64,000 nt of DNA from contig JAUIJL010000001.1 in assembly GCA_030431255.1 (NCBI GenBank), forward strand, positions 310,001-374,000, read 5' to 3'. The notes beneath the pieces are model-generated. The model saw only the letters and a program-made list of their open reading frames with translations, made no database searches and was not told the DNA's origin. The position numbers were made by a program, and so were the translations under genes. This document shows, one piece after another, positions 12,101-49,563 of the stretch (position 1 is the stretch's first letter; every line of letters begins with the position of its first letter). The stretch comes from Thermoanaerobaculia bacterium. GTDB taxonomy: Bacteria > Acidobacteriota > Thermoanaerobaculia > Multivoradales > J023.

Positions 12101-12602
12101 TGATCCAGCGGTCTTCTTCGTCGATCAAGACGCGTCCCAGGTGGCCGGCTCCTTCAGCCTACAGCTATCCGCGGGGCCGACCAGCCAACCCTCGGTGGAG
12201 CAATGCGTGGGGCTACCGGATCTGGACGGACCCAATGCCGTCTATCGGGTTGCCCTGCACGCCAGGACCGCCCACTGCGAAGGCGGTTTGGCCTTGGCCG
12301 GGCTTCGCCTCGAAGGATTCGCCGACGCCGCGTGCCAAGGTGCCACCGCCGAGCTCGGCGGCGTGGAGCTCGGTTTCTCCGATCCGGGTGAGCCAGGCCA
12401 TGATCACGGACAATGGGCCGGGGCGGATCGATATCTCAACGTGGCCGGCGAATGGGCTTCGGCCGGAATCGAGCTCTGGGCCACGGCCGACCGGCCGTGT
12501 GAGCTGTGGATCGACCAAGTGAGCCTCAGCCCGGCGATCGGGGCGATTTTCGTCGACGGATTTGAGAGTGGGGACCTGGGGCGATGGTCCACGGTCCCTT
12601 GA
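6135..12602 (+). CDS. Giant secreted Kelch-propeller / gingipain-type (C25-like) protein
   Basis: ATG 6135 follows GGGAGAAAGATC and opens a signal peptide (hydrophobic WIVALLGILAVMPVEA). The 2155-residue protein has three parts. Residues about 40-760 form a long series of Kelch units with recurring DGRVLVAGG-like strands. An Ig-like segment lies near 870-945. A C25 (gingipain-like) peptidase region starts near 1070 (RRTLFLTHRG) with a candidate catalytic His in LFGHAHH (about 1345) and Cys in GVGCHGG (about 1400). The C-terminal 700 residues look like beta-sandwich modules, and the protein ends IFVDGFESGDLGRWSTVP. In gingipains the His motif is GHG; here it is GHA, so activity needs testing. 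Several GGR/GGK-rich Kelch strands suggest an adhesive or substrate-binding role. Confidence 0.75.
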   Translation: MSKSLSAPMFEMGFHGFYLWIVALLGILAVMPVEAQDCGENDVGEGSWPAVGRLDRGREDAAIAPLGDGNMLLIGGFDGSSVLSSTRIFDGITGTFRNGPELTVARRGASATTFGDGRILVVGGQGADGRPVDSSELYDPATGEFGAPENMLTGRYEHTATLFDDGRVWVAGGSALPDGADDAEETATVEAYHPASGWTEQPDMEDARRGHTATRLDDGRVAIIGGRGAGFQQLASIELFDPSTDLWSLGSPIPDGRGEHATVALDDGRLVVFGGLAWQPGDPEPVASARTWISNPDLSSWTEWREMRDPRWRLSARRLADGKILVVGGKGNNTCDQWASVELFDPFTLVGGLPQLTTLAPLPLARYHFAMALLGDGRVLVAGGRNDEPSLLQLPSAYVFSLETGDFVPTGSLIESRKSTDAVLLPNGLVLVAVGRNGDGDLTGSAELFDLVSETFLPTGGVEEARTAATLSVLPDGRAVLVGGKGADGPLKTLDIYDAFHGTFTRHADVLVLGRQDHTTNVLADGSLLVCGGYIGGGAYGDTCERVTFGPGGPSSEIVAERPGLPWFRHSATLLADGRILLVGGSVAQTGSLVDIYDPFLGALTSHTPMQVARYRHGAASLPDGRVLITGGNEGILSAEIYDPATNSWSSVSDMDEGFNGHTSLSLADGSVLIFGDRGAGDPDSRSVFRFDVATGLFVRAGELETPRHDGASVVVADGRVLTLGGNDPLTEGIDTAELYSTFELPPGASVPMLEAPGGILDPLVDWVIPGTGLRAAFDSGDGGRLSAEDRLVLTLRSLSDGRVRRLEVVEVTANSVRVRAPARYPGDGGLFDPPPAGFHLLAPILGGRTGQGVIVEVSCGLAVADPEDQTVELRQEGRFEAIADGGRIYQWQRSDDAGATWQDIEGADAPVYLTPPALGTDHGSLFRAQVDAGCAGITTEPATLSVTDDEDPVVAVNRPAEGEVWLLSPAGGEQNRQVVTWSIQDDLPLASLEVELHWTTFDGSEGSEALCGPNRCDPPAPESREVLFALPTGPPGGVGARYQIRVLAEDVAGNTAEGFSGEFLMVSEDQSRRTLFLTHRGRLEEVFSPAEIEALFASLRQLANHPRVAGLIVDLQQSPGFDAQALMDWRDGPGDPELANRVLFGDGGAHGVVLALLEAYPGVEHLVIVGGDEIVPFARLPDESPILRPSDYRDHQRGEPGSILVAPETVGALEADRYFSDDPLAVLEPLSPEDLNAHSLMLPDLSVGRLVETPEEMSGVIDRFLDRDGVVDLGAGDATMGAGLSGYDFLTDAALRVASILGALLGESSVDASLADGVWSDPAPDPDAARSALLDLLEAPKSLYGLFGHAHHLGLGVPGLDRFDQQALDGLEISGGDLCGNVASGGSSIDWDLAGAVIYGVGCHGGLSVPDSCPVEASYDLPQALLGSGALGYLANSGYGWGLLYGIGYAERLVELFTEQLELGAVELGVAARQAKRQYLLENTRLDPFDVKTLQQWILFGLPMVELRPGSGGDGLGRQEEGQGVPLDHEVSSPDDPDLPPGLTRVSTRIDFSAEGVYRLFDAGGVEQPVGTPCLSPEGCYYVLNGLTTGESDLPVEPFFTYDARLSGARPRGVLWLGGEVSVTPGWVPVIGRLASNEDESIEVLPPNLPLMVMTGPIPTELGSGCAQGEVTPFGGQGGDAARVTVTAGITVYDDFELDSASHHRFDTYELETFYADGPCPGQGPEFGDGPFDGAYHQRDGAGLRFEVPVSDADGVWRVVALWTSSDATAYSPVELERGEDGVFRGQVHHDELSGSNLTYLLQAVDRKGRVSYLPFESLDDPAGAVGTGLPSSGIPLGLPRTVQVDLEAPALPPTLRAVHTVPEWRRLSSGDRLDLALARLDVEISAPANPLADIRLIALESGQDPVCADDPLSWPGQVFAGPTEEILSLRLGGSPPPAGSYRLLLCDVRDVLGGAFTETSLDFELETDHLVWNGGFDIGLDGWSSGGDPAVFFVDQDASQVAGSFSLQLSAGPTSQPSVEQCVGLPDLDGPNAVYRVALHARTAHCEGGLALAGLRLEGFADAACQGATAELGGVELGFSDPGEPGHDHGQWAGADRYLNVAGEWASAGIELWATADRPCELWIDQVSLSPAIGAIFVDGFESGDLGRWSTVP

Positions 12603-39651: not shown

Positions 39652-42600
39652 ATGGCGAGAGCGGCATCGACCCGAGCAAAAGGTTTTCTTCTTTCGATGT
39701 TTATTTTAACTCTCTTCTTGGCGGCCCCGACTTGGGCGGAGACGAGCTCGAAGGCCGAAGCGAATAGCTTTTGTTTCAGTGTGTTTCAGATCCCCTTTGC
39801 CCAATGCCAGGCCCTGGAGGCGCTCTACAACGCGACGGGTGGGCCGAGCTGGACCCAGAATTCGGGCTGGCTCGCCGACTTCGAGCCTTGTGGCTGGCAT
39901 GGCGTCAGCTGCGCGGGATCAAATGTGGCTTCGCTTTCTTTGGCCGACAACAAATTGGTGGGCACGATTCCCTCGGAAATCGGCGGCTTAACCTCGCTTT
40001 CGACCATCGATCTTTCTGAGAATTCGTTGAGCGGCTCTTTGCCCGCCACTTTCGGCGATCTCGATAATTTGGTGGCCCTGGATTTCTCTTTCAATGAGCT
40101 CAGTGATCTGGGCAGTGGCTTCAGCGGATTGGACGCGGTGCTCAGCGTCAAGATCAACGACAATGCGCTGACCGCCCTGCCCGCGGATTTCGATGCCCTC
40201 ACCACGCTGCAGCTCGCTTTCTTCAACCGCAACGCGCTGGAGGCGCTACCGGACCTCAGCGGCCTCAGCAACTTATCGACGCTGTCGGTCTCGGGTAATC
40301 TCCTGGAGGCCCTACCCGCCGGCACGTGCAGCCTTCCCGCCTTGACCGTGCTTGAAATCGGTTACAACAAAATTGTGCTTTCTCCGTCGGATCCCTGTTG
40401 GCCTCTGCTCGACGCTGGGGATATCCAAACCCAAACCGTGGCGCCGGTGATCGAGGATGCGTATGCCCATCCGGATCGACCGTTCGACGACGCCGTGATC
40501 GAGTGGACACCGATCGACTATTCGCAGGAAGGCGGTGGTTATCGCATTTATATGTCGCAGACGGAGAACGGCCCATACCAGCTGATCGGTCAGGTCGAGG
40601 ATAAGAGCGTGTCGACGTTCACGGCCAAAAACCTGAGCTCGGGGGAGCGCTATTTCTTCGCCATAGAAACCTACACCGATCCCCATGGGCTGAATCCGAA
40701 TGCTCTGGTCAGCGACCGGACCACCCCCTTTCCGTTGGGCAATTCCGCCCTGCCCGCGGCCGCCAGGACCCCGTGCCTGGCACATATCAACCAAATCGGC
40801 GCGGCTACCGGCAAAGCCCGGGCCCTTGAGACCGTCTATTTCCACGGCGTGGTCGGCGAGCTCGGTCATATCGCCGAACCGAGCTCCTATCATTGGACCT
40901 ATACGGCGGCCGATGACCAATGCGACCCGAAGAGCGGCTCGACTCCCGTCGATTTGTCGATGTCGCGCTCGTTTGCCACCAACGCCATTCCCGAGGGGCA
41001 TTGGCGAATCGACTTCATGGCCAGCGAAGACCCGCCACCGGCGGTTTGCATTCCCGACTTTCAATGCTTGACGATCCTTCCCGACCGCAGCCTTACGGAT
41101 CTCGAGATTCTGGCTTCGGAGGTGGAGATCACCCAGCCTGGGCCGCCATTTCAGCCGATCATCGGCCAGATCTCGACCCATACAAACGTCGCGATTCGGT
41201 TCACTGTCCACAATCGGAGCGCCATCAGCGAGCAAACTGAGGTGCGGGTGGAGGCCTGGGAGGGAGATCCCGACGATGGTGGCACGTTCATCGACAGGGT
41301 GGATATTCCGCAGATCGGTCCCCAAAGCCAAGTGATGGAGTCCATACCTTGGAATGTCGGTACCCAGGAGGGTTTCCGGGTGGTGACCCTGCGGACGGTC
41401 TATCGAGCCAACGTCGATGAGCAACATCCGGATTATCTCGATCCCTTGCATCCGGACTATCCACCGTATCCGGAGGCCGACACCGGTAATAACGAGGCCA
41501 CGACCCACGTGCTGGTGGGCACCCCGATCCTGGGCAATTTCGATATCGACGTGGATTGTGCCTTCGATCTTTCCGGCAACATCCTCGGTCAGCATTGGGC
41601 CGGGACTCCCACCCCCTTGTTCGGTGATGGGCATTATGCCTTCGGCAACCGTTTGCCGGTGATGGGGGCGGAGGTGGAGATTGTGATCTCGGATCCGGCT
41701 AATTCCAATCAGATCGTGCTCAGCCAACAGGGCCGGACCATCGCGCCCTACGGCACGTTCCGAGAGCTGGTGACGATTCCCGATGCGGGAACCTACGATG
41801 TAGTTGTACGCATCGACGACAACAACTTGATCGGTGAGCATCGCTTCCAGGTCACGGTCGTCGATCCACCGCCGTGGCCCAACCTCCACTTCGATCAACA
41901 CCCCTACTATTGCGCTCGCAATGCCATCACCTTTGAAGGGCCGCTAGTGTGGAATGAGGGCTGCCACTACTACACCGTGCAAGACGCCGAGGTCGACATT
42001 CGCGCGCTGCTCCACAACACGGGGTTTGCCGACGCCACTCAATATGAGGTCGAGGTTTGGGAAGGCCCTGTGGGCTCCGGAACCCTGCTCACCACCCATC
42101 CGTCCCCAGGTGTTCTGCCGGTCGGTGATGACATCTCTCTACAGATCCCTTGGCCGGCGATGCCTGCCGGCAATGAGGTAGGCTTTGTGCCTAACACGAT
42201 TACCTCATACAACATCTGCCTGGATGCGGATTTGATCCTGCCCATGGACGAGCTGACCCTGCTCGACAACCAAGTGTGTCGACGGCTGCATGTGTTGAAG
42301 AGGGCGCCGGACTTACACCCGACGAATATCCACTTCGGTCCTTGGCCGGTGCTGAACCCGACCCAAGCCGGTCCATTGGAATCCCTTGAGATCCATGCCG
42401 ACGTGATCAACATGACGCCGATTTCACTCAACGAGGGGTGTACGATGCCCCCTTGTGCCTTTGAGGTGACGTACTACAGCGGCCAGCCCGGTGCCGGAGG
42501 CACCTTGACTCTCGGTACTCAGATTTACACCCCAACCCCCAGTGAGTTGATGAACCGCGGAGATCGGATCAGCCTGCCGACGTTTATCTGGACACCGGAG

Positions 42601-45600
42601 GCCGCGGACGGGGCCGTGCACGGTTGGCAACCCATTTGGATCGTGGTCGACACCTTGGACCCCGATCCGAGCGATATGGTCGCGGGTGAGGTCGACGAGG
42701 CGCGAGAGCACAACAACGGGAATTGGAGCTGGATTTGCATCTACAAACCCGCCGCATCCTTCATCCGCGCCCATGCCCTCAACGCGACGAAATACGGGCT
42801 GCGCATCGGCGATACCATCGACTTGTGGCCCCATGTGCGCAACAAAGGGGAGCTCGATCACCTCACCGATGTCGATATCGACCTTTTCCTCGGTCATCCC
42901 GATGTTTCGGGCTCGGTGCCGATTGGCAGCTGCATGGTGCCTTCGATCATCCCTGGGCGAGGCGCTGTCGCGGGATGTATGACTGGGGTACCCTGGACCG
43001 CGGGCAATACCCCGGGCACGGTTTACGTCTACGCACGGATCCAAAGCACCTTGGAAACCTGGGCTCGCCGCTTGGACATCTATGCGGATCCACCGCCGGA
43101 CCTACAGATTTTCTCCCAGGACATCCTCCTGCCGGCCATGCCGCCGATGCTGAACACGAGCATCGATTTGAAAGCGGATATCCGCAACGTCAGTGAGGAA
43201 ACCGACGCCAACGGTTTTATCGTGCGTTTCTTTTCCGACAGCCCGGCGGGCACCACCGAGCTCGGATCCGTTCCCGTGCTCAATCTAGCCCACACGCCGT
43301 CGGGAGGCCCCCCGACTTCCATGCAGGTCATGGGTCCGTCGATGATGATCACCCAGCCCTATTACGCCTTTCGGGTGGAGATCGAGCCCAATCCCCTTGA
43401 GGGGGACGGCAATTTCGACGACAACGCAGCCACCACATCCTTGGCGGAGGTCAATTTGGGTCCCCAAGCCGGGTTTTATTACCCCCTCGAATTGCAATGG
43501 GATCCTGTACGCAACTTCTCGAGCAACAACCACGACGGCTCGGCCCAAGGCGGTGTCGCCAACTTCTGCGGCAAGCCGGCCTATGAGCATGGGAACGATC
43601 CGAATTTGAATACCTGCTTGTTCGGCCAATTCGACGGTGTCGACGACCGAATCGTGGTGCCCAGCACTCCGGATTTAGACTTCACCGACGAGCTGACGGT
43701 CATGGCTTGGGCACGGCCGACGCCAGACACCCTGCCGCAGGCCGGCGATGTGCTCGCCCGCGGAGATCGAGATATGTCCGGGGTGTTGCAACACGGCTTT
43801 GCCTTGGGCATCACGGACGGTCTGCCGCAGAGGCAGTGGGAATTCACGGTAGTGACTATGAACGGACGTTGCTCGGTCATGGGTAGCCCTATTGTCCCCC
43901 TCCTAGAGTGGGAATCCGTGGCCGCCACCTACGATGGATCAGACCTGAAGCTCTATGTGGATGGCGCTCTGGTGTCGACCCAGGGCTGCATGGGCAACAT
44001 CGATTGGGGCTCCAGCAGCTTCGATTTCGAAATCAGCCCCGCGGCCCGTCCCTTCCGGGGTTTGATCGACGAGGTTCGGCTCTTCGACGAGGTTCTGGAT
44101 CAACCCACAATCGATTCGACCCGTAGGCTGACCCGAACCTGCAATTGCGATTTGGTGGCCCCGATCGCCCGCAATCTCACCACCATGACGAATTACCAAG
44201 TGGATCCCAGCCTCGCCCCCGCGGACGAGCCTTTCCATCCGATTCAACGGGCGATCAACGAGGCCAATCCGGGGGATACCGTGGCCGTGCGCTGTGGCAA
44301 TCGCGAGGTTCCCGGTCCGACGAGCTTAAAAAGCGGCGTGCAGGTGATCGGTGGCTATGACCCGACGTGGGTGCGCACCAATTGTTCGTCGGATCGGACC
44401 ACCATCGACGGCTCTCTGGGCAGCTTCCGTTGCTTCGAGGCGAACGGCGTGGATGCCACGGCGTTGCTGGAGGAGATGGTGATCACGGGTTGCGAGAGCG
44501 CGACCTGTGGCGGAGGCTTCTACGGGATCAACACCGCCATGACCCTGAATAGGATCATCTTCGAAGACAACCGCGCCGATATGGGGGGTGGGGCGTGCTT
44601 CATCAATCCGGTTCACGCAAAGATCGAGAATTCGACCCTTCGAGACAACCATGTCGGTACCAGCGGCGGTGGATTATATGTTTTCGAGGGCGCGATGAAG
44701 GTCGTGGATGTGGATTTCGCCGGCAACACGTCCGGTATAGACGGCGGAGGCCTCTCCACCGACGGCTCGGCCCCCGTGTTGGGGCTGTACAATACGGTGT
44801 TCTTCGACAACTGGGCGAATCGTGGTGGCGCTGCCTTCCTGAGCGACGGCACCGTCTTGACGCTCTTCAACTCCCTGATGGTCCAAAACGACGCCGATAC
44901 CGGTGCCGGTGTCCGGTCCTACATGTTCTGTGGCACGCTCGATATCGACAACGCCACCGTGGCCGACAACAGCAACATCTCCCCGAGCTCGCCGATCGTC
45001 GATCTCGGAATGTCCTGCGCGGCCATGCCGACGGCGATCCTTGCCCAACTGGAGAACAGCATCATGCATCACAGCTCTCAGGATGAGATGTCTCCCTCCC
45101 ATTGGAAGCGCACATATTCCAACTTTAAGGGGGCGGTCACGGCGTCGGGCAATTTCGATGAGACTCCGACTTTCGTCGATGACTATTATCTTCCGCCTTC
45201 GAGCAACGATCCAGAGGACAACGTCGACGACGGATCCACGACCGCCATGGACGCGGGTCTAAGCGAAGAGCAGGGCTATCGGACGGTGTTCGTTGCCAAC
45301 TTGACCGATGGAGACCTAGATCAGGTGGATCTAGGTTTCCACCATCGGTTGCCCTTCACCTCCAATCAGCTCAAGAGGATCGGCCCGTCTTGGGTGGCGA
45401 GGTACCACCTGGATGAGCAGAGTTGGCGGCTTACGGGCGAGGTTCGAGACTCGAGCGGCCTCCACCACCACGGCCGGAAGGACGGTGCGGCTCATCATGC
45501 CCTGACGGATCCGGCATCGGGTACGTCCGGTCTCGGAAGCTGTGGCTACGGTTCCTTCAGCGCCGGTGATGGGATTCTGGTTCCTTGGGATCGAGACCTG

Positions 45601-46095
45601 GAAGTCGATGGTGATTTCACCGTCGCGGCTTGGGTTCGTCTGGCGCCCCCGATCGGCACGTCGATGTCGATCTTGCGGCACGGCAACGGTTTATACGGAT
45701 GGGAGCTGGCCTTCGACGGTGCAATTTGGCAAGCCACCTCGTATACAGGCTCGGCCGCCGAAACCGTCTTCGGCACCCAGGCCGTGCAGGCCGATCGGTG
45801 GTACCACGTCGCCATGGTGATGCGTGCCGGTACCTTGGAGCTCTACGTGGATGGAGCCTTCGACACGAGCATTCCAGCGGGCGGTACCGCCTGGGATCCC
45901 TTGGGCCCTGCGGATCTGCGCATCGCCGATAGCTCCTTTGCCGGTGATCTCGACGAAATCGAGATCCATGACGAGGCCCTGGGTCCGGCGGACATCTTGG
46001 CCCTGACGACAGCGAGCAAAGTGTGTAACTCACCGCTTTTCGCGGATGGTTTCGAAAGCGGCTCCAGCCAATACTGGAGCTACGAGGTCCAATAA
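39652..46095 (+). CDS. Giant secreted LRR/Fn3/CARDB/LamG/beta-helix protein
   Basis: A signal peptide (FLLSMFILTLFLAAPTWAE) opens this 2147-residue exoprotein. An LRR block at ~45-235 begins with a plant-like capping motif (CQALEALYNATGGPSW...GVSC) and repeats L-x-L-x-x-N. A Fn3-like unit follows (YRIYMSQTENGPYQLIG), then CARDB/adhesion-like beta modules to ~1280. A LamG domain comes next (FGQFDGVDDRIVVPSTPDLDF, MAWARPTP), then a right-handed beta-helix with Pbl-like turns (GGGLYVFEGAMKVVDVDFAGN). A second LamG unit (AAWVRLAPPIG, YHVAMVMRAGTLELYVDG) precedes the C-terminal LFADGFESGSSQYWSYEV. It is probably a surface or secreted adhesin/binding protein; no catalytic site is evident. Confidence 0.8.
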   Translation: MARAASTRAKGFLLSMFILTLFLAAPTWAETSSKAEANSFCFSVFQIPFAQCQALEALYNATGGPSWTQNSGWLADFEPCGWHGVSCAGSNVASLSLADNKLVGTIPSEIGGLTSLSTIDLSENSLSGSLPATFGDLDNLVALDFSFNELSDLGSGFSGLDAVLSVKINDNALTALPADFDALTTLQLAFFNRNALEALPDLSGLSNLSTLSVSGNLLEALPAGTCSLPALTVLEIGYNKIVLSPSDPCWPLLDAGDIQTQTVAPVIEDAYAHPDRPFDDAVIEWTPIDYSQEGGGYRIYMSQTENGPYQLIGQVEDKSVSTFTAKNLSSGERYFFAIETYTDPHGLNPNALVSDRTTPFPLGNSALPAAARTPCLAHINQIGAATGKARALETVYFHGVVGELGHIAEPSSYHWTYTAADDQCDPKSGSTPVDLSMSRSFATNAIPEGHWRIDFMASEDPPPAVCIPDFQCLTILPDRSLTDLEILASEVEITQPGPPFQPIIGQISTHTNVAIRFTVHNRSAISEQTEVRVEAWEGDPDDGGTFIDRVDIPQIGPQSQVMESIPWNVGTQEGFRVVTLRTVYRANVDEQHPDYLDPLHPDYPPYPEADTGNNEATTHVLVGTPILGNFDIDVDCAFDLSGNILGQHWAGTPTPLFGDGHYAFGNRLPVMGAEVEIVISDPANSNQIVLSQQGRTIAPYGTFRELVTIPDAGTYDVVVRIDDNNLIGEHRFQVTVVDPPPWPNLHFDQHPYYCARNAITFEGPLVWNEGCHYYTVQDAEVDIRALLHNTGFADATQYEVEVWEGPVGSGTLLTTHPSPGVLPVGDDISLQIPWPAMPAGNEVGFVPNTITSYNICLDADLILPMDELTLLDNQVCRRLHVLKRAPDLHPTNIHFGPWPVLNPTQAGPLESLEIHADVINMTPISLNEGCTMPPCAFEVTYYSGQPGAGGTLTLGTQIYTPTPSELMNRGDRISLPTFIWTPEAADGAVHGWQPIWIVVDTLDPDPSDMVAGEVDEAREHNNGNWSWICIYKPAASFIRAHALNATKYGLRIGDTIDLWPHVRNKGELDHLTDVDIDLFLGHPDVSGSVPIGSCMVPSIIPGRGAVAGCMTGVPWTAGNTPGTVYVYARIQSTLETWARRLDIYADPPPDLQIFSQDILLPAMPPMLNTSIDLKADIRNVSEETDANGFIVRFFSDSPAGTTELGSVPVLNLAHTPSGGPPTSMQVMGPSMMITQPYYAFRVEIEPNPLEGDGNFDDNAATTSLAEVNLGPQAGFYYPLELQWDPVRNFSSNNHDGSAQGGVANFCGKPAYEHGNDPNLNTCLFGQFDGVDDRIVVPSTPDLDFTDELTVMAWARPTPDTLPQAGDVLARGDRDMSGVLQHGFALGITDGLPQRQWEFTVVTMNGRCSVMGSPIVPLLEWESVAATYDGSDLKLYVDGALVSTQGCMGNIDWGSSSFDFEISPAARPFRGLIDEVRLFDEVLDQPTIDSTRRLTRTCNCDLVAPIARNLTTMTNYQVDPSLAPADEPFHPIQRAINEANPGDTVAVRCGNREVPGPTSLKSGVQVIGGYDPTWVRTNCSSDRTTIDGSLGSFRCFEANGVDATALLEEMVITGCESATCGGGFYGINTAMTLNRIIFEDNRADMGGGACFINPVHAKIENSTLRDNHVGTSGGGLYVFEGAMKVVDVDFAGNTSGIDGGGLSTDGSAPVLGLYNTVFFDNWANRGGAAFLSDGTVLTLFNSLMVQNDADTGAGVRSYMFCGTLDIDNATVADNSNISPSSPIVDLGMSCAAMPTAILAQLENSIMHHSSQDEMSPSHWKRTYSNFKGAVTASGNFDETPTFVDDYYLPPSSNDPEDNVDDGSTTAMDAGLSEEQGYRTVFVANLTDGDLDQVDLGFHHRLPFTSNQLKRIGPSWVARYHLDEQSWRLTGEVRDSSGLHHHGRKDGAAHHALTDPASGTSGLGSCGYGSFSAGDGILVPWDRDLEVDGDFTVAAWVRLAPPIGTSMSILRHGNGLYGWELAFDGAIWQATSYTGSAAETVFGTQAVQADRWYHVAMVMRAGTLELYVDGAFDTSIPAGGTAWDPLGPADLRIADSSFAGDLDEIEIHDEALGPADILALTTASKVCNSPLFADGFESGSSQYWSYEVQ

Positions 46096-46106
46096 TGACA
46101 AAAGCA

Positions 46107-46140
46107 AAGCGGGCGCGCCTCGTTGAGGGCGCGCCCGCTT
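46107..46140. terminator. Bidirectional hairpin terminator
   Basis: Perfect 13-base arms AAGCGGGCGCGCC (46107-46119) and GGCGCGCCCGCTT (46128-46140) with an 8-base loop, 11 bases past the LRR gene stop. It would also serve the minus-strand peptide genes, whose last stop is at 46168. Confidence 0.75.
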
Positions 46141-46167
46141 GGTTGCAGCTATTTAGAAGCGATCCGA

Positions 46168-46269
46168 TTATCCGCCGCCGCCGTCATCCTGGTCAGGATT
46201 TGGGAGGATAGGACAGGCGGGGCAGGGAACGTCCGCCGGCCCGGCCTTTAGATGGGTTTCTACGTTCAT
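46168..46269 (-). CDS. Tandem micro-gene, third in transcription order: 33-residue CPxC/Gly-tail peptide
   Basis: A short frame with an AGGAG Shine-Dalgarno 9 bases before ATG 46269. It encodes MNVETHLKAGP, then ADVPCPACP, ILPNPDQDD and a GGGG tail. It matches the two upstream paralogs over residues 1-20 except for three positions (12, 14, 18), while the codons for His6, Leu7, Lys8 and Gly10 vary between copies with no change in residue. That pattern argues for selection on the peptide. The CPxC pair could bind a metal or be modified. I do not recognise the family; a ribosomally made, modified peptide is one possibility, but no modification enzyme is next to it. Confidence 0.7.
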   Translation of the reverse strand: MNVETHLKAGPADVPCPACPILPNPDQDDGGGG

Positions 46270-46295
46270 GATGGAATCTCCTGAAGTGGTGGCGA

Positions 46296-46505
46296 GCCCG
46301 AGAATGGTTCCCGGGCGGGCCTTGGGTCAGCCGCCGCCGCCGCCGCTGCCGCCGCTGCCGCCGCTGCCGCCGTCATTGTCCGGGTTCTTGACCAAGGGGC
46401 AGCTCGGGCAGGGAATATCCTCGGGTCCGGCTTTCAAGTGGGTTTCTACGTTCATGATGGTGCCTCCTGAGGTGGTGGAACGCCCCGGGAATGGCTTCCC
46501 GGGCG
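46296..46505 (-). promoter_or_regulatory. Conserved hairpins between the micro-genes
   Basis: Each gap between micro-genes carries a related stem: 46481-46505 (CGCCCCGGGAA / TTCCCGGGCG, one bulge) and 46296-46316 (GCCCGAGAA / TTCCCGGGC, one mismatch). The gaps are 58 and 57 bases and also share the sequence around the Shine-Dalgarno, showing the unit of duplication is gene plus hairpin. They may protect mRNA ends or set the ratio of the peptides. Confidence 0.5.
46327..46455 (-). CDS. Tandem micro-gene, second in transcription order: 42-residue CPxC/Gly-Ser-tail peptide
   Basis: AGGAGG lies 9 bases before ATG 46455. Residues 1-20 are identical to the peptide encoded at 46514-46615 and carry Cys16-Pro-Ser-Cys19. 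The rest reads LVKNPDND followed by an expanded Gly/Ser tail made of GGS units ending in five glycines, written as GGC/AGC codons, so its length may vary by slippage. Same spacing and same flanking sequence as its neighbours. Probably part of a single transcript with the other two. Confidence 0.75.
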   Translation of the reverse strand: MNVETHLKAGPEDIPCPSCPLVKNPDNDGGSGGSGGSGGGGG

Positions 46506-46513
46506 TGCTTGGG

Positions 46514-46615
46514 TCAACCGCCGCCGCCGGAGTTTTCGTCCGGGTCCTTGATGAGCGGACAGCTCGGGCAGGGAATATCCTCGGGACCGGCCTTTAGATG
46601 GGTTTCTACGTTCAT
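46514..46615 (-). CDS. Tandem micro-gene, first in transcription order: 33-residue CPxC/Gly-tail peptide
   Basis: AAGGAGAT lies 6 bases before ATG 46615. After the shared 20-residue block it reads LIKDPDENS and GGGG. It lies 153 bases downstream of the GNAT gene stop. The 5' leader contains a hairpin (46644-46666) and a TTGACA hexamer on this strand (46692-46687). The shared block with two cysteines in a proline frame (CPSCP) and a variable glycine-rich end resembles leader/core architecture, but also a minimal secreted or structural peptide. No signal peptide or membrane segment is present. Confidence 0.75.
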   Translation of the reverse strand: MNVETHLKAGPEDIPCPSCPLIKDPDENSGGGG

Positions 46616-46643
46616 GGTGATCTCCTTGAATGTTGATAGTCTC

Positions 46644-46666
46644 AATGACCGGGTTTTCCGGTCATT
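46644..46666 (-). promoter_or_regulatory. Leader hairpin upstream of the micro-gene cluster
   Basis: AATGACCGG / CCGGTCATT arms of 9 bases around a 5-base loop, 29-51 bases above the first micro-gene ATG. No T-tract follows on the minus strand, so a 5' UTR structure is more likely than a terminator of the GNAT gene. A TTGACA -35-like hexamer sits just upstream (46692-46687), but a good -10 partner is not clear. Confidence 0.35.
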
Positions 46667-46768
46667 TCGTAGTGATTACCATTATGTGTCAATTCGCTTC
46701 GAAAGGAGATTTGCATTTCTGAGCGATCGGCCCGATTGTCTGAAGGCGTTTCCCTCGGCCTCCAACAT

Positions 46769-47671: not shown

Positions 47672-49033
47672 ATGGAATCACAGTTTTGGATCGTCGCCCC
47701 GCCGCCGGGCTCGGGACGGCAAGTGCTGCGCAGCCGACGGATCGTGACCCCCGACGGGGAGGTGGACGGTTTTTTGGTGGTCGAAGGTCCGAGCATCGAG
47801 TCTATTCACCCCGTGGGTGATGGAGCACCGGAGGGGGCGGTTCGGGATGTGGGGTCGGCGGCGATCCTGCCCGGTGGCATCGACCCCCACGTGCATTTGA
47901 ACGAGCCGGGGCGGGAGTCGTGGGAGGGCATGGACACCGGCACCCGGGCGGCGGCGGCCGGTGGCATCACCCTGGTGGTGGATATGCCCCTCAACAGCGA
48001 TCCTCCGACGGTGAAGCCGACGGCCATGGCGGCCAAACGCAGGACGGCGGAGGACCATCGGGACCGTGGCACCCTGTGGACCCAGCTGGCGGCCCACGCG
48101 GGTCTTGTGCCCGGTAATGAGGGGGAGATCGAGAGCTTAGTGGACGTCGGGGCCGCGCGGGTGAAGGCTTTCTTGACCCATTCCGGCATCGACGAATTTC
48201 CCGCCGTGGGGGAGCGGGAGCTGCGTCGGGCCATGGAGCGGCTGGCCCGGCGCGGCATACCTCTTTGGACGCATGCGGAATTGGATTCCGACTCCTCGCC
48301 TTCAGCGACGCCGGATCCCAACGCCTACAGTGCTTGGCTGGCGTCCCGCCCGGACACATTCGAGACCGAAGCGATCGAGCTTCTTTTGCGCTTGGTGCGG
48401 GAAACGGGGTGCCCCCTTCACATCGTGCATTTGGCGACCGCAGAGGCCTTGCCGATGTTGGCGGAGGCGCGAGCCGAGGGGCTACCCGTGACGGTGGAGA
48501 CCTGCCCCCACTACCTCACGTTTTCCGCCGAGCATTTGCCCGATGGGGATCCCCGATTCAAATGCGCCCCGCCGATCCGTGGCGAGCGGCACCGAGAAGC
48601 TCTTTGGCAAGCCTTGGGGGATGGACTCATCGATTGGGTGGCGTCGGATCATTCGCCGGCACCGCCCGGGCTGAAGGGCGGCGATCTTCTCTCCGCTTGG
48701 GGTGGCATCGCTTCGTTGCAGGTGTCGCGCTCAGCGCTCTGGACCGAAGCGCGGCGACGTGGATTCGACCTCGGGGATCTCGTGCGCTGGACGTCCGTCG
48801 CGCCGGCCCGGGGCCTGGGGCTGGAATCGTGCAAGGGTAGCTTGGCTCCGGGTTACGGCGCGGATCTGGTGATTTTCGATCCCGAGGCCCGTTGGACCGT
48901 AGTGGGTGCCGAGCTCGAGCATCGTCACCCCGAGACCGCTTACGAAGGCCTCGAGCTCCGTGGTCGGACTTTGGCCACTTGCGTCCGGGGTCGCTGGACG
49001 TGGGATGACGGCCTGGATCTCGAGGAGGGGTGA
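47672..49033 (+). CDS. allB: Allantoinase
   Basis: Opens the hydantoin ring of allantoin to allantoate. The 453-residue amidohydrolase has the binuclear metal site motif GGIDPHVHLNEPG, the carbamylated-lysine region ARVKAFLTHSG, HIVHLATAEALP, CPHYLTFSAEHL and VASDHSPAP, in the order and spacing of AllB-type cyclic amidohydrolases. Pathway context is decisive: OHCU decarboxylase follows with TGATG overlap, and uricase, HIU hydrolase and allantoate amidohydrolase lie on the opposite strand nearby. SD-like GTCTGGG precedes ATG 47672. The 15-base repeats upstream may be its regulatory sites. Confidence 0.92.
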   Translation: MESQFWIVAPPPGSGRQVLRSRRIVTPDGEVDGFLVVEGPSIESIHPVGDGAPEGAVRDVGSAAILPGGIDPHVHLNEPGRESWEGMDTGTRAAAAGGITLVVDMPLNSDPPTVKPTAMAAKRRTAEDHRDRGTLWTQLAAHAGLVPGNEGEIESLVDVGAARVKAFLTHSGIDEFPAVGERELRRAMERLARRGIPLWTHAELDSDSSPSATPDPNAYSAWLASRPDTFETEAIELLLRLVRETGCPLHIVHLATAEALPMLAEARAEGLPVTVETCPHYLTFSAEHLPDGDPRFKCAPPIRGERHREALWQALGDGLIDWVASDHSPAPPGLKGGDLLSAWGGIASLQVSRSALWTEARRRGFDLGDLVRWTSVAPARGLGLESCKGSLAPGYGADLVIFDPEARWTVVGAELEHRHPETAYEGLELRGRTLATCVRGRWTWDDGLDLEEG

Positions 49034-49563
49034 TGAGCGAGTTTTCGACCGGCCTGACCTTAGACGCCCTGAACGGGTTGCCGGATCAGCGGTTCACGGA
49101 ACACATGGCCGCTTGCTGTGGCTCGGAACGTTGGCAGCGGAAGATGTCGGCGCGACGCCCCTTTGCCGATGTCGACGCCTTGCTCACGGCCGCCGAGCAG
49201 GCGGCAGAGCGCTTGACGGAGCAAGATTGGCTACAAGCGTTTTCTCACCATCCCAGGATCGGCGACGTGGATGCGCTACGGCGCCGTTTCGGATCCCGCT
49301 CCGGGTCGTGGTCGCAGGCCGAGCAGACCGGGGTGGAAGGTACCGAGGAGTCGATTCTGGAACGATTGGCGGAAGGCAATCTGCGCTATGAGCAGCGATT
49401 CGGTTACATTTTCATCGTCTGCGCCAGCGGAAAATCCGCGTCCGAGATGTTGCAAATCTTGGAAAGCCGGCTGGGGAACGACCGGGACGAAGAGCTGATC
49501 GTCGCGGCGGGGCAGCAACGCAACATCACCCGCCTGCGGCTCTTGAAGCTGTTGGGTGTCTAG
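49033..49563 (+). CDS. uraD: OHCU decarboxylase
   Basis: Decarboxylates 2-oxo-4-hydroxy-4-carboxy-5-ureidoimidazoline to S-allantoin. ATG 49033 overlaps the allB stop (TGATG) with GGAGGGG just upstream, so coupling is likely; a GTG at 49030 is the alternative. The 176-residue protein shows the fold and catalytic histidine motif FSHHPRIGD, and the C-terminal NLRYEQRFGYIFIVCASGKSA block. Its stop codon interlocks with that of the convergent ATP-grasp-like gene (overlap 4 bases, the CTAG palindrome). Confidence 0.92.
   Translation: MSEFSTGLTLDALNGLPDQRFTEHMAACCGSERWQRKMSARRPFADVDALLTAAEQAAERLTEQDWLQAFSHHPRIGDVDALRRRFGSRSGSWSQAEQTGVEGTEESILERLAEGNLRYEQRFGYIFIVCASGKSASEMLQILESRLGNDRDEELIVAAGQQRNITRLRLLKLLGV

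Follow-up and report, generated by a model that had tools for sequence, protein, structure and literature searches.

Three very short genes with a shared beginning and divergent ends follow one another in a Thermoanaerobaculia genome, and they raise the question of what peptides of this size and design are made for. They lie on the minus strand at 46168-46615 of the window, by which we mean the whole 64,000-nucleotide stretch of DNA that was analyzed, and comprise 33, 42 and 33 codons according to the ORF listing and translations. The trio are, quite probably, precursors of secreted peptides, in which a minimal ten-residue leader for a peptidase-C39 ABC transporter (PCAT) would be cut after Ala-Gly and the variable tail exported.

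Organization of the micro-gene trio

The three short frames with Shine-Dalgarno sequences that the first-pass annotation had described in a single orientation were all recovered as minus-strand ORFs. Copy 1 (46514..46615, 33 aa; MNVETHLKAGPEDIPCPSCPLIKDPDENSGGGG) is assigned from its ORF translation and best own-genome match, and copies 2 (46327..46455, 42 aa, with GGS/GGGGG in its tail) and 3 (46168..46269, 33 aa) from their translations. An AGGAG-type Shine-Dalgarno sequence, read directly from the minus strand, is found 6-8 nt 5′ of the ATG in every copy (AAGGAG at 46622..46627, AGGAGG at 46463..46468 and AGGAG at 46278..46282 for copies 1, 2 and 3, respectively). All three peptides start with MNVETHLKAG, and their tails diverge. 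This ten-residue leader occupies 46586..46615, 46426..46455 and 46240..46269 of the minus strand in the three copies; in copy 1 the cut is predicted after Ala9-Gly10, and in copies 2 and 3 the leader is assigned from the codon comparison of the copies and the family alignment.

Over codons 1-11, the three copy pairs differ by 4, 2 and 5 synonymous changes and by 0, 0 and 0 non-synonymous ones; over codons 1-20, the synonymous/non-synonymous counts are 6/0, 5/3 and 9/3. The synonymous codon changes noted earlier at His6, Leu7, Lys8 and Gly10 are correct. The proposal of a shared 20-residue leader holds for copies 1 and 2, which are identical over that length, but not for copy 3, which deviates at residues 12, 14 and 18; the block common to all three copies comprises residues 1-11, and in the family at large the conserved block ends at residue 10, with the A-G pair.

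The intergenic gaps measure 58 and 57 bases, and each folds, as had been reported, into a related hairpin of the CCCGGGAA type. The one separating copies 1 and 2 occupies 46480..46506 (z -2.01 when 46456-46513 is folded), and the one separating copies 2 and 3 occupies 46291..46321 (z -2.45 when 46270-46326 is folded). Another hairpin (ATGACCGG..CCGGTCAT) is positioned 5′ of copy 1 at 46645..46665 (z -2.04 when 46616-46700 is folded), and a terminator-like one, with 13 pairs in a consensus scan, 3′ of copy 3 at 46107..46140 (z -3.14 for 46080-46167), all on the minus strand. Hairpins were rejected as a family-wide element, the upstream regions of 121 members having a mean z of -0.75, with 23% below -1.5.

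Against Pfam, the window peptides matched zf-C2H2_5 only, far below the cut-off and for two of them, and against NCBIfam the three gave no match up to E 10. The neighboring LRR and GNAT genes form no BLAST cluster with the other neighborhoods compared. The LRR protein (39652-46095) is one of three window ORFs that end in an [IF]xDGFESGxxxxW-type motif, located at 46044 (+) in this protein and at 12554 (+) and 56016 (-) in the other two. A like ending is found in two large proteins beside other micro-genes of the same genome and in one 510-aa protein; its sequence suggests a tail used for sorting or anchoring. Elsewhere in the window, at 47672-49563 (+), an amidohydrolase gene adjoins one for an OHCU decarboxylase, a pair that we take to suggest ureide breakdown.

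A family defined by its first ten residues

The same start recurs throughout the trio's own genome (10.19 Mb, 54 contigs), in which a five-position leader pattern gave 17 matches where its reversed form gave 1, an excess beyond chance. Among the 17, there are 11 Shine-Dalgarno-led micro-ORFs. Further such micro-ORFs retrieved with five-position leader patterns are MNVTTHLRAGDGDNSQDDDSGHENVARFNVE, MHVTTHLQAGPGSSFCPSCPIHPSP, MNVTTHIQAGPNEYPWQGGG and MQVSTHLKAGDYDNDNLDDTPMDIHK, followed by MKVVTQLTAGPIFTVRPKSGGG, MVIKTQVKAGDVTVPACDGSSKEAGY, MNVQTTVIAGLPGLIIPNG and MRITTSLKAGNGNQVQPVTPPPSEIVGAIDPNG, and, less certainly, MQAQTQLRAGDGAIGGG. Members outside the trio begin in the same way, M-x-[VI]-x-T-x-[VIL]-x-A-G, and carry unrelated tails. 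The total, trio included, is given as about twelve micro-genes at ten loci because one copy (C16:67165) is doubtful, having Ala at position 3 and overlapping predicted ORFs. Directly upstream of the MQVSTHLKAGDYDNDNLDDTPMDIHK micro-gene is a gene for a 1248-aa protein that combines AMP-binding, carrier and aminotransferase domains (L092:6023-9769).

A whole-peptide profile search of 59 relatives returned mostly noise above E 0.01 and was replaced by a DNA pattern that combines Shine-Dalgarno sequence and leader. Among six weak profile matches outside G000 that were inspected (L006, L026, L007, L008, L015, L019), only L026 is a family member; the remaining loci of that search were covered by a motif scan alone. 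The DNA pattern gave 27 matches in 9 of 118 relatives, and its reversed form 0.

Extending the pattern scan to a collection of species genomes retrieved 59 stretches, 55 of them genuine: 51 hold strict members and 4 hold longer or edge-cut ones (L155, L182, L196, L197). The four false hits (L151, L154, L191, L199), which are long or overlapping ORFs, were removed before counting. Two or more members are present in 24 of the 51 strict-member stretches, with a maximum of nine. The genuine records come from Acidobacteria, Chloroflexi (Oscillochloris, Anaerolineae), Deltaproteobacteria, Myxococcota, Gammaproteobacteria (Methylobacter, Methyloglobulus, Thiotrichaceae), Planctomycetes and Gemmatimonadaceae; since the majority were assembled from metagenomes, individual cases may be misbinned. 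The first-pass annotation had let its reading depend on homologs that keep the start codon and Shine-Dalgarno sequence; these were looked for and exist. One of the false hits, L191:5361-7022, is a 553-aa ORF that starts with MNIQTKVKAG after a Shine-Dalgarno sequence and contains CNLRCKGCY, which we take to resemble a radical-SAM cluster motif.

Across loci, the family totals 126 distinct DNA members and 119 distinct peptides, which have 118 different tails of 4-61 residues (median 12); 41 of the 119 peptides have tails of 8 residues or fewer. Ala-Gly occupies positions -2/-1 in all 119 strict members, being part of the search patterns, and the five patterned leader positions are likewise conserved partly through search construction. 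In 758 Shine-Dalgarno-led micro-ORFs, a set enriched by the way the loci were fetched, A-G falls at residues 9-10 in 126 and in any other register (2-3 to 14-15) in 3 to 11. Among the 119 peptides, position -8 is V (89) or I (30), position -7 is mostly K (86; otherwise Q 14, T 5, E 5, R 4, S 3, H 1, V 1), position -6 is T/S, and position -4 is V (65), I (31) or L (23), hydrophobicity at this last site being demanded by the patterns. A GG variant accompanies two AG copies in L176, which fits a Gly-type cut site.

A cysteine is present in the tails of 19 of the 119 peptides, and CPxC in 5, namely the window trio and two others. CPxC is a mark of a sub-group, not of the family, and the earlier idea of metal-binding tags does not describe the family's nature; Zn binding was likewise rejected as the main reading on these counts.

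Some members depart from the simple layout. In L182, L196 and L197 the leader unit recurs along one protein, as in a multi-core precursor. Longer proteins of [LV]xVK[ST]xVKAGG..NHNQ repeats are encoded at L182:7452-8000 and L197:4482-5294 and in L196 and L202; the repeat protein of L197, the one scanned, had no Pfam match. In L039 (5415-5909 and 6158-6241), a micro-gene reads MKIKTHIKAG-PETAGVMGAEDSGVLPP, and its tail resembles the C terminus, PETAGVMGAEEGGIVPSSSSGS, of a 164-aa protein encoded just upstream, as if the end of that protein had been placed behind a leader. The leader was not found described in the open-access literature searched, and the micro-genes that share these first ten residues across several phyla apparently form an unnamed family.

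Linkage and co-occurrence with a C39 exporter

The family is associated with an exporter composed of HlyD and a distinct PCAT, often with a second ABC protein. Judged from sequence, the partner PCAT forms a subfamily of its own: the model built for the subfamily C39 domain scores at least 214 bits with 16 copies from relatives (14 of which served as its seeds) versus 31-50 bits with 30 other C39 ORFs. The PCAT C39 domains match Pfam PF03412. In L176, the transporter has a weak match to the C39 model (53.7 bits) and no Cys motif, and this lineage may differ in its transporter.

A micro-gene adjoins the exporter operon in 5 of the 16 relatives that carry it. In four (G012, G020, G034, G063) it is the first gene before HlyD and a PCAT of ~900 residues, and in G015 its end lies 14 bp from the end of the operon. 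The second ABC gene then follows in 6 of the 13 exporter operons examined, including that of the trio's own genome, which is on contig C50; a relaxed scan of this exporter's neighborhood found no micro-gene there. A conserved exporter neighbor had been anticipated, and the exporter does exist, but it is unlinked to the micro-genes in the own genome. Within 8 kb in the 59 pattern-fetched stretches, the subfamily C39 domain is present in 10, ABC-cluster genes in 17, HlyD in 11, and ABC or HlyD in 19; the ABC cluster derives from single-linkage BLAST and takes in generic ABC ATPases, so that 17/59 is wider than the exporter and the C39 count of 10/59 is stricter.

Co-occurrence extends the association beyond adjacency. 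In the order sample, all 9 micro-gene genomes are among the 16 subfamily carriers of 71 genomes (p 1.5e-7). In the phylum sample of 297 genomes, there are 7 strong carriers and an eighth genome with a weak match, and the 4 genuine micro-gene genomes all fall within the 7 (p 1.1e-7); 5 genomes match the micro-gene pattern if G007 is included, whose match is a 352-aa gene and not genuine. G221 was not counted as a carrier, its C39 match being weak (7.8e-21, 719 aa, one stop in the match). None of the four false-hit genomes, that of L191 among them, was found to contain the subfamily C39 domain. No micro-gene was found, by genome pattern or by relaxed scan of the exporter neighborhood, in 6 of the 16 relative carriers (G007, G010, G022, G029, G031, G040) or in 3 of the 7 phylum carriers (G007, G261, G349).

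A further 25 genomes were reached via 27 stretches with no subfamily C39 domain in view, out of the 55 genuine ones; the others comprise 18 stretches with ABC/HlyD, 7 from G003, G006 and G054, and 3 from genomes already included. The subfamily C39 domain is encoded elsewhere in 16 of these 25 genomes (E 6.1e-63 or better) and was not found in 9, the completeness of the 25 being unstated; L183, L185 and L201 are among the micro-gene carriers without it. The record of Methyloglobulus morosus KoM1 (L152), a carrier that can be grown, contains both a micro-gene and the PCAT. Two of the 27 stretches call for a correction: a fragment of HlyD lies at the edge of L179, and L162 belongs to a genome already present in the order sample (G026); without these two the count is 14/23. 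The values 16/25 and 7/297 come from differently drawn samples and are not compared by a statistic.

Among the 83 nearest neighbors at 51 loci, the top families are ABC (5), AAA_16 (5), ECF sigma (4), kinase (4), TPR (4) and HlyD (4). No modifying enzyme is among the families matched by at least 2 of the 83 neighbors, within the 25 families listed; 67 further families and singletons lie outside that listing. The radical-SAM or YcaO neighbor suggested earlier was likewise encountered neither among the four window neighbors nor among the recurrent families near the 51 loci. ECF sigma factors (PF07638), in many cases accompanied by a Ser/Thr kinase, are encoded in 8 of the 59 pattern-fetched stretches (L146, L148, L150, L163, L165, L182, L196, L202) and beside two own-genome micro-genes (L092:2604-6067); the BLAST cluster labeled STPK also takes in TPR proteins without a kinase. 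Genes of ~800 aa near the micro-genes (a BLAST cluster at 5 loci) were rejected as a partner, their orientation not being constant, and are presumably common permeases.

Proposed leader recognition and comparison with known systems

The peptidase domain of the partner transporter retains its catalytic apparatus. In a comparison of 26 subfamily domains with 30 others, from which L060 (the same gene as L097) and L062 (a cut subfamily piece) were left out, the catalytic Gln and Cys are present in 26/26 subfamily domains and the His and Asp in 25/26, one being cut short. The C39 profile matches the structures of PCAT1, ComA and LahT at E 1e-14 to 1e-7. At the site of the PCAT1 knot residue Ile59, 25 of the 26 subfamily domains have Glu/Asp, as do 24 at the next residue; in the 30 other domains the Ile59 site is L/V/I/M in 22 and K/R in 6, and the next residue K/R in 27.

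Known C39 domains bind the leader as a helix whose Leu-12 and Leu-7 sit in a hydrophobic knot, and they also read the residue at -4; published double-glycine leaders need Leu-12/Leu-7 in that helix (PMC6363468, PMC6959990). An acidic partner peptidase fits a lysine-rich leader. We infer from the sequences that a lysine-bearing, perhaps extended, leader would meet an acidic groove of the partner C39 domain, and that cleavage would follow Ala-Gly.

Double-glycine PCAT systems (ComC/ComA, CtA/PCAT1, LahT substrates) resemble the family in having an N-terminal leader that ends in a small-residue pair, hypervariable cargo, a C39 domain with catalytic Gln/Cys/His/Asp and a hydrophobic residue at -4. 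A cognate transporter with an intact C39 domain is also found, on the evidence of the PF03412 match, catalytic residues, linkage and co-occurrence. Unlike the known substrates, however, the family has a leader of only 10 residues, with no position -12; position -7 is polar or charged in 118/119 peptides, in place of the Leu-12/Leu-7 feature (with Glu-8); Ala stands at -2, in place of Gly-Gly, Gly-Ala or Gly-Ser at -2/-1; and the knot site of the partner C39 domain is Glu/Asp, where known ones are hydrophobic or basic. The departure of A-G from the usual G-[GAS] motif counts against the PCAT-leader reading. The family would work like a double-glycine system but lacks two of its defining features.

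A second point of comparison is provided by the NHLP/Nif11 precursors, which, as described by Haft et al. (2010), have a three-gene HlyD / C39-ABC / ABC exporter, several scattered precursors per genome and hypervariable C termini, and were detected through co-occurrence and clustering (PMC2887384). The exporter gene layout, scattered precursors, hypervariable C termini and mode of detection are all shared with the present family. In contrast, the window peptides, of 33-42 aa, have a 10-aa leader and no long nitrile hydratase- or Nif11-related leader domain, A-G replaces G-G, and there is no recurrent modifying enzyme. Six exporter proteins of G012, G020 and G034 also score far below the NCBIfam NHLP-type cut-offs (e.g., 161-183 bits versus 853 for TIGR03796).

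The Gram-negative and cyanobacterial double-glycine consensus, M(R/K)ELX3E(I/L)X2(I/V)XG(G/A), is attributed to Dirix et al. (2004) as quoted in PMC3140520. Going by this quoted form, the M-[RK] start, [IV] at -4 and a C39 exporter with HlyD are held in common, whereas the family is five residues shorter, is without the E-L, E and I/L positions, and has T at -6 and A at -2.

Alternative explanations

Related gene layouts are used by ribosomally synthesized peptides that are modified before export (RiPPs), and the micro-genes could be read in these terms: the leader would mainly recruit a modifying enzyme, the tail would be the modified core, and the exporter would finish the pathway. The leader/core layout, the Cys or Gly/Ser-rich character of part of the tails (Cys in 19/119) and an exporter layout like that of NHLP/Nif11 RiPPs speak for such precursors. 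Yet a recurrent modifying enzyme beside the precursor, the feature expected of RiPPs, is absent both from the families matched by at least 2 of the 83 neighbors at the 51 loci and from the surroundings of the window genes, and 41/119 peptides have tails of only 4-8 residues; we regard this reading as unlikely. It is quite improbable that the products are cytoplasmic or structural micro-proteins whose N terminus forms a short strand or serves as a binding motif (for metal, e.g., via CPxC) and whose link to the exporter is indirect. The repetition of the leader unit within the longer proteins of L182, L196 and L197 would be in keeping with this, as would the CPxC of the trio and two other peptides, but Cys ligands are not conserved across the family (CPxC in only 5/119), and one PCAT subfamily both co-occurs with the micro-genes and adjoins them.

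That the short ORFs and nearby hairpins constitute regulatory leader ORFs or attenuators, whose translation matters and whose peptide does not, is scarcely credible: residues stay fixed despite synonymous divergence, homologs occur in many phyla, the terminator-like hairpin lies directly 3′ of copy 3, and the upstream regions of the 121 members are, as a set, not unusually structured. Of the proposals made in the first-pass annotation, that of leader/core-like precursors agrees best with these data, given the protein-level constraint on the leader, the hypervariable tails, the homologs with start and Shine-Dalgarno sequence and the linked C39-peptidase exporter.

Proposed mechanism and implications

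A family with a common leader and hypervariable tails co-occurs and locally clusters with one PCAT subfamily, in which the PCAT catalytic residues are intact. Under the secreted-precursor reading, residues 1-10 (MNVETHLKAG) would serve as a minimal export leader, recognized by the N-terminal C39 cysteine-peptidase domain of the dedicated ABC transporter, which would cut after Ala9-Gly10. Together with its HlyD partner, and in many cases the second ABC protein, the transporter would then move the released tail to the outside. In the own genome, the operon on contig C50 would serve the ~12 unlinked micro-genes, of which the window trio would be the three with a CPxC, Gly-rich tail. Leader binding, cleavage after AG and export are likely steps on this scheme, and the tails would act outside the cell, conceivably as signals, antimicrobials or surface ligands; short repertoire-like tails suit signals or antimicrobials alike.

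A broader and more speculative possibility, which we put forward tentatively and would not ourselves favor, is a cross-phylum system in which one exporter with a lysine-reading C39 peptidase would release unmodified peptides of ~4-40 residues from unlinked genes, each with a private sequence and together making up a repertoire specific to the genome. These might function as a language, of signals or self/non-self tags, partly under the control of neighboring pairs of ECF sigma factor and Ser/Thr kinase.

Genes so small are easily missed by annotation, and the system could therefore be widespread without having been noticed. If the precursor reading is right, the short fixed leader would allow genomes to be mined for many secreted peptides that have been overlooked, in phyla about whose peptide communication little has been learned, and the partner transporters would represent a mode of PCAT leader recognition that operates without the hydrophobic Leu-7/Leu-12 knot.
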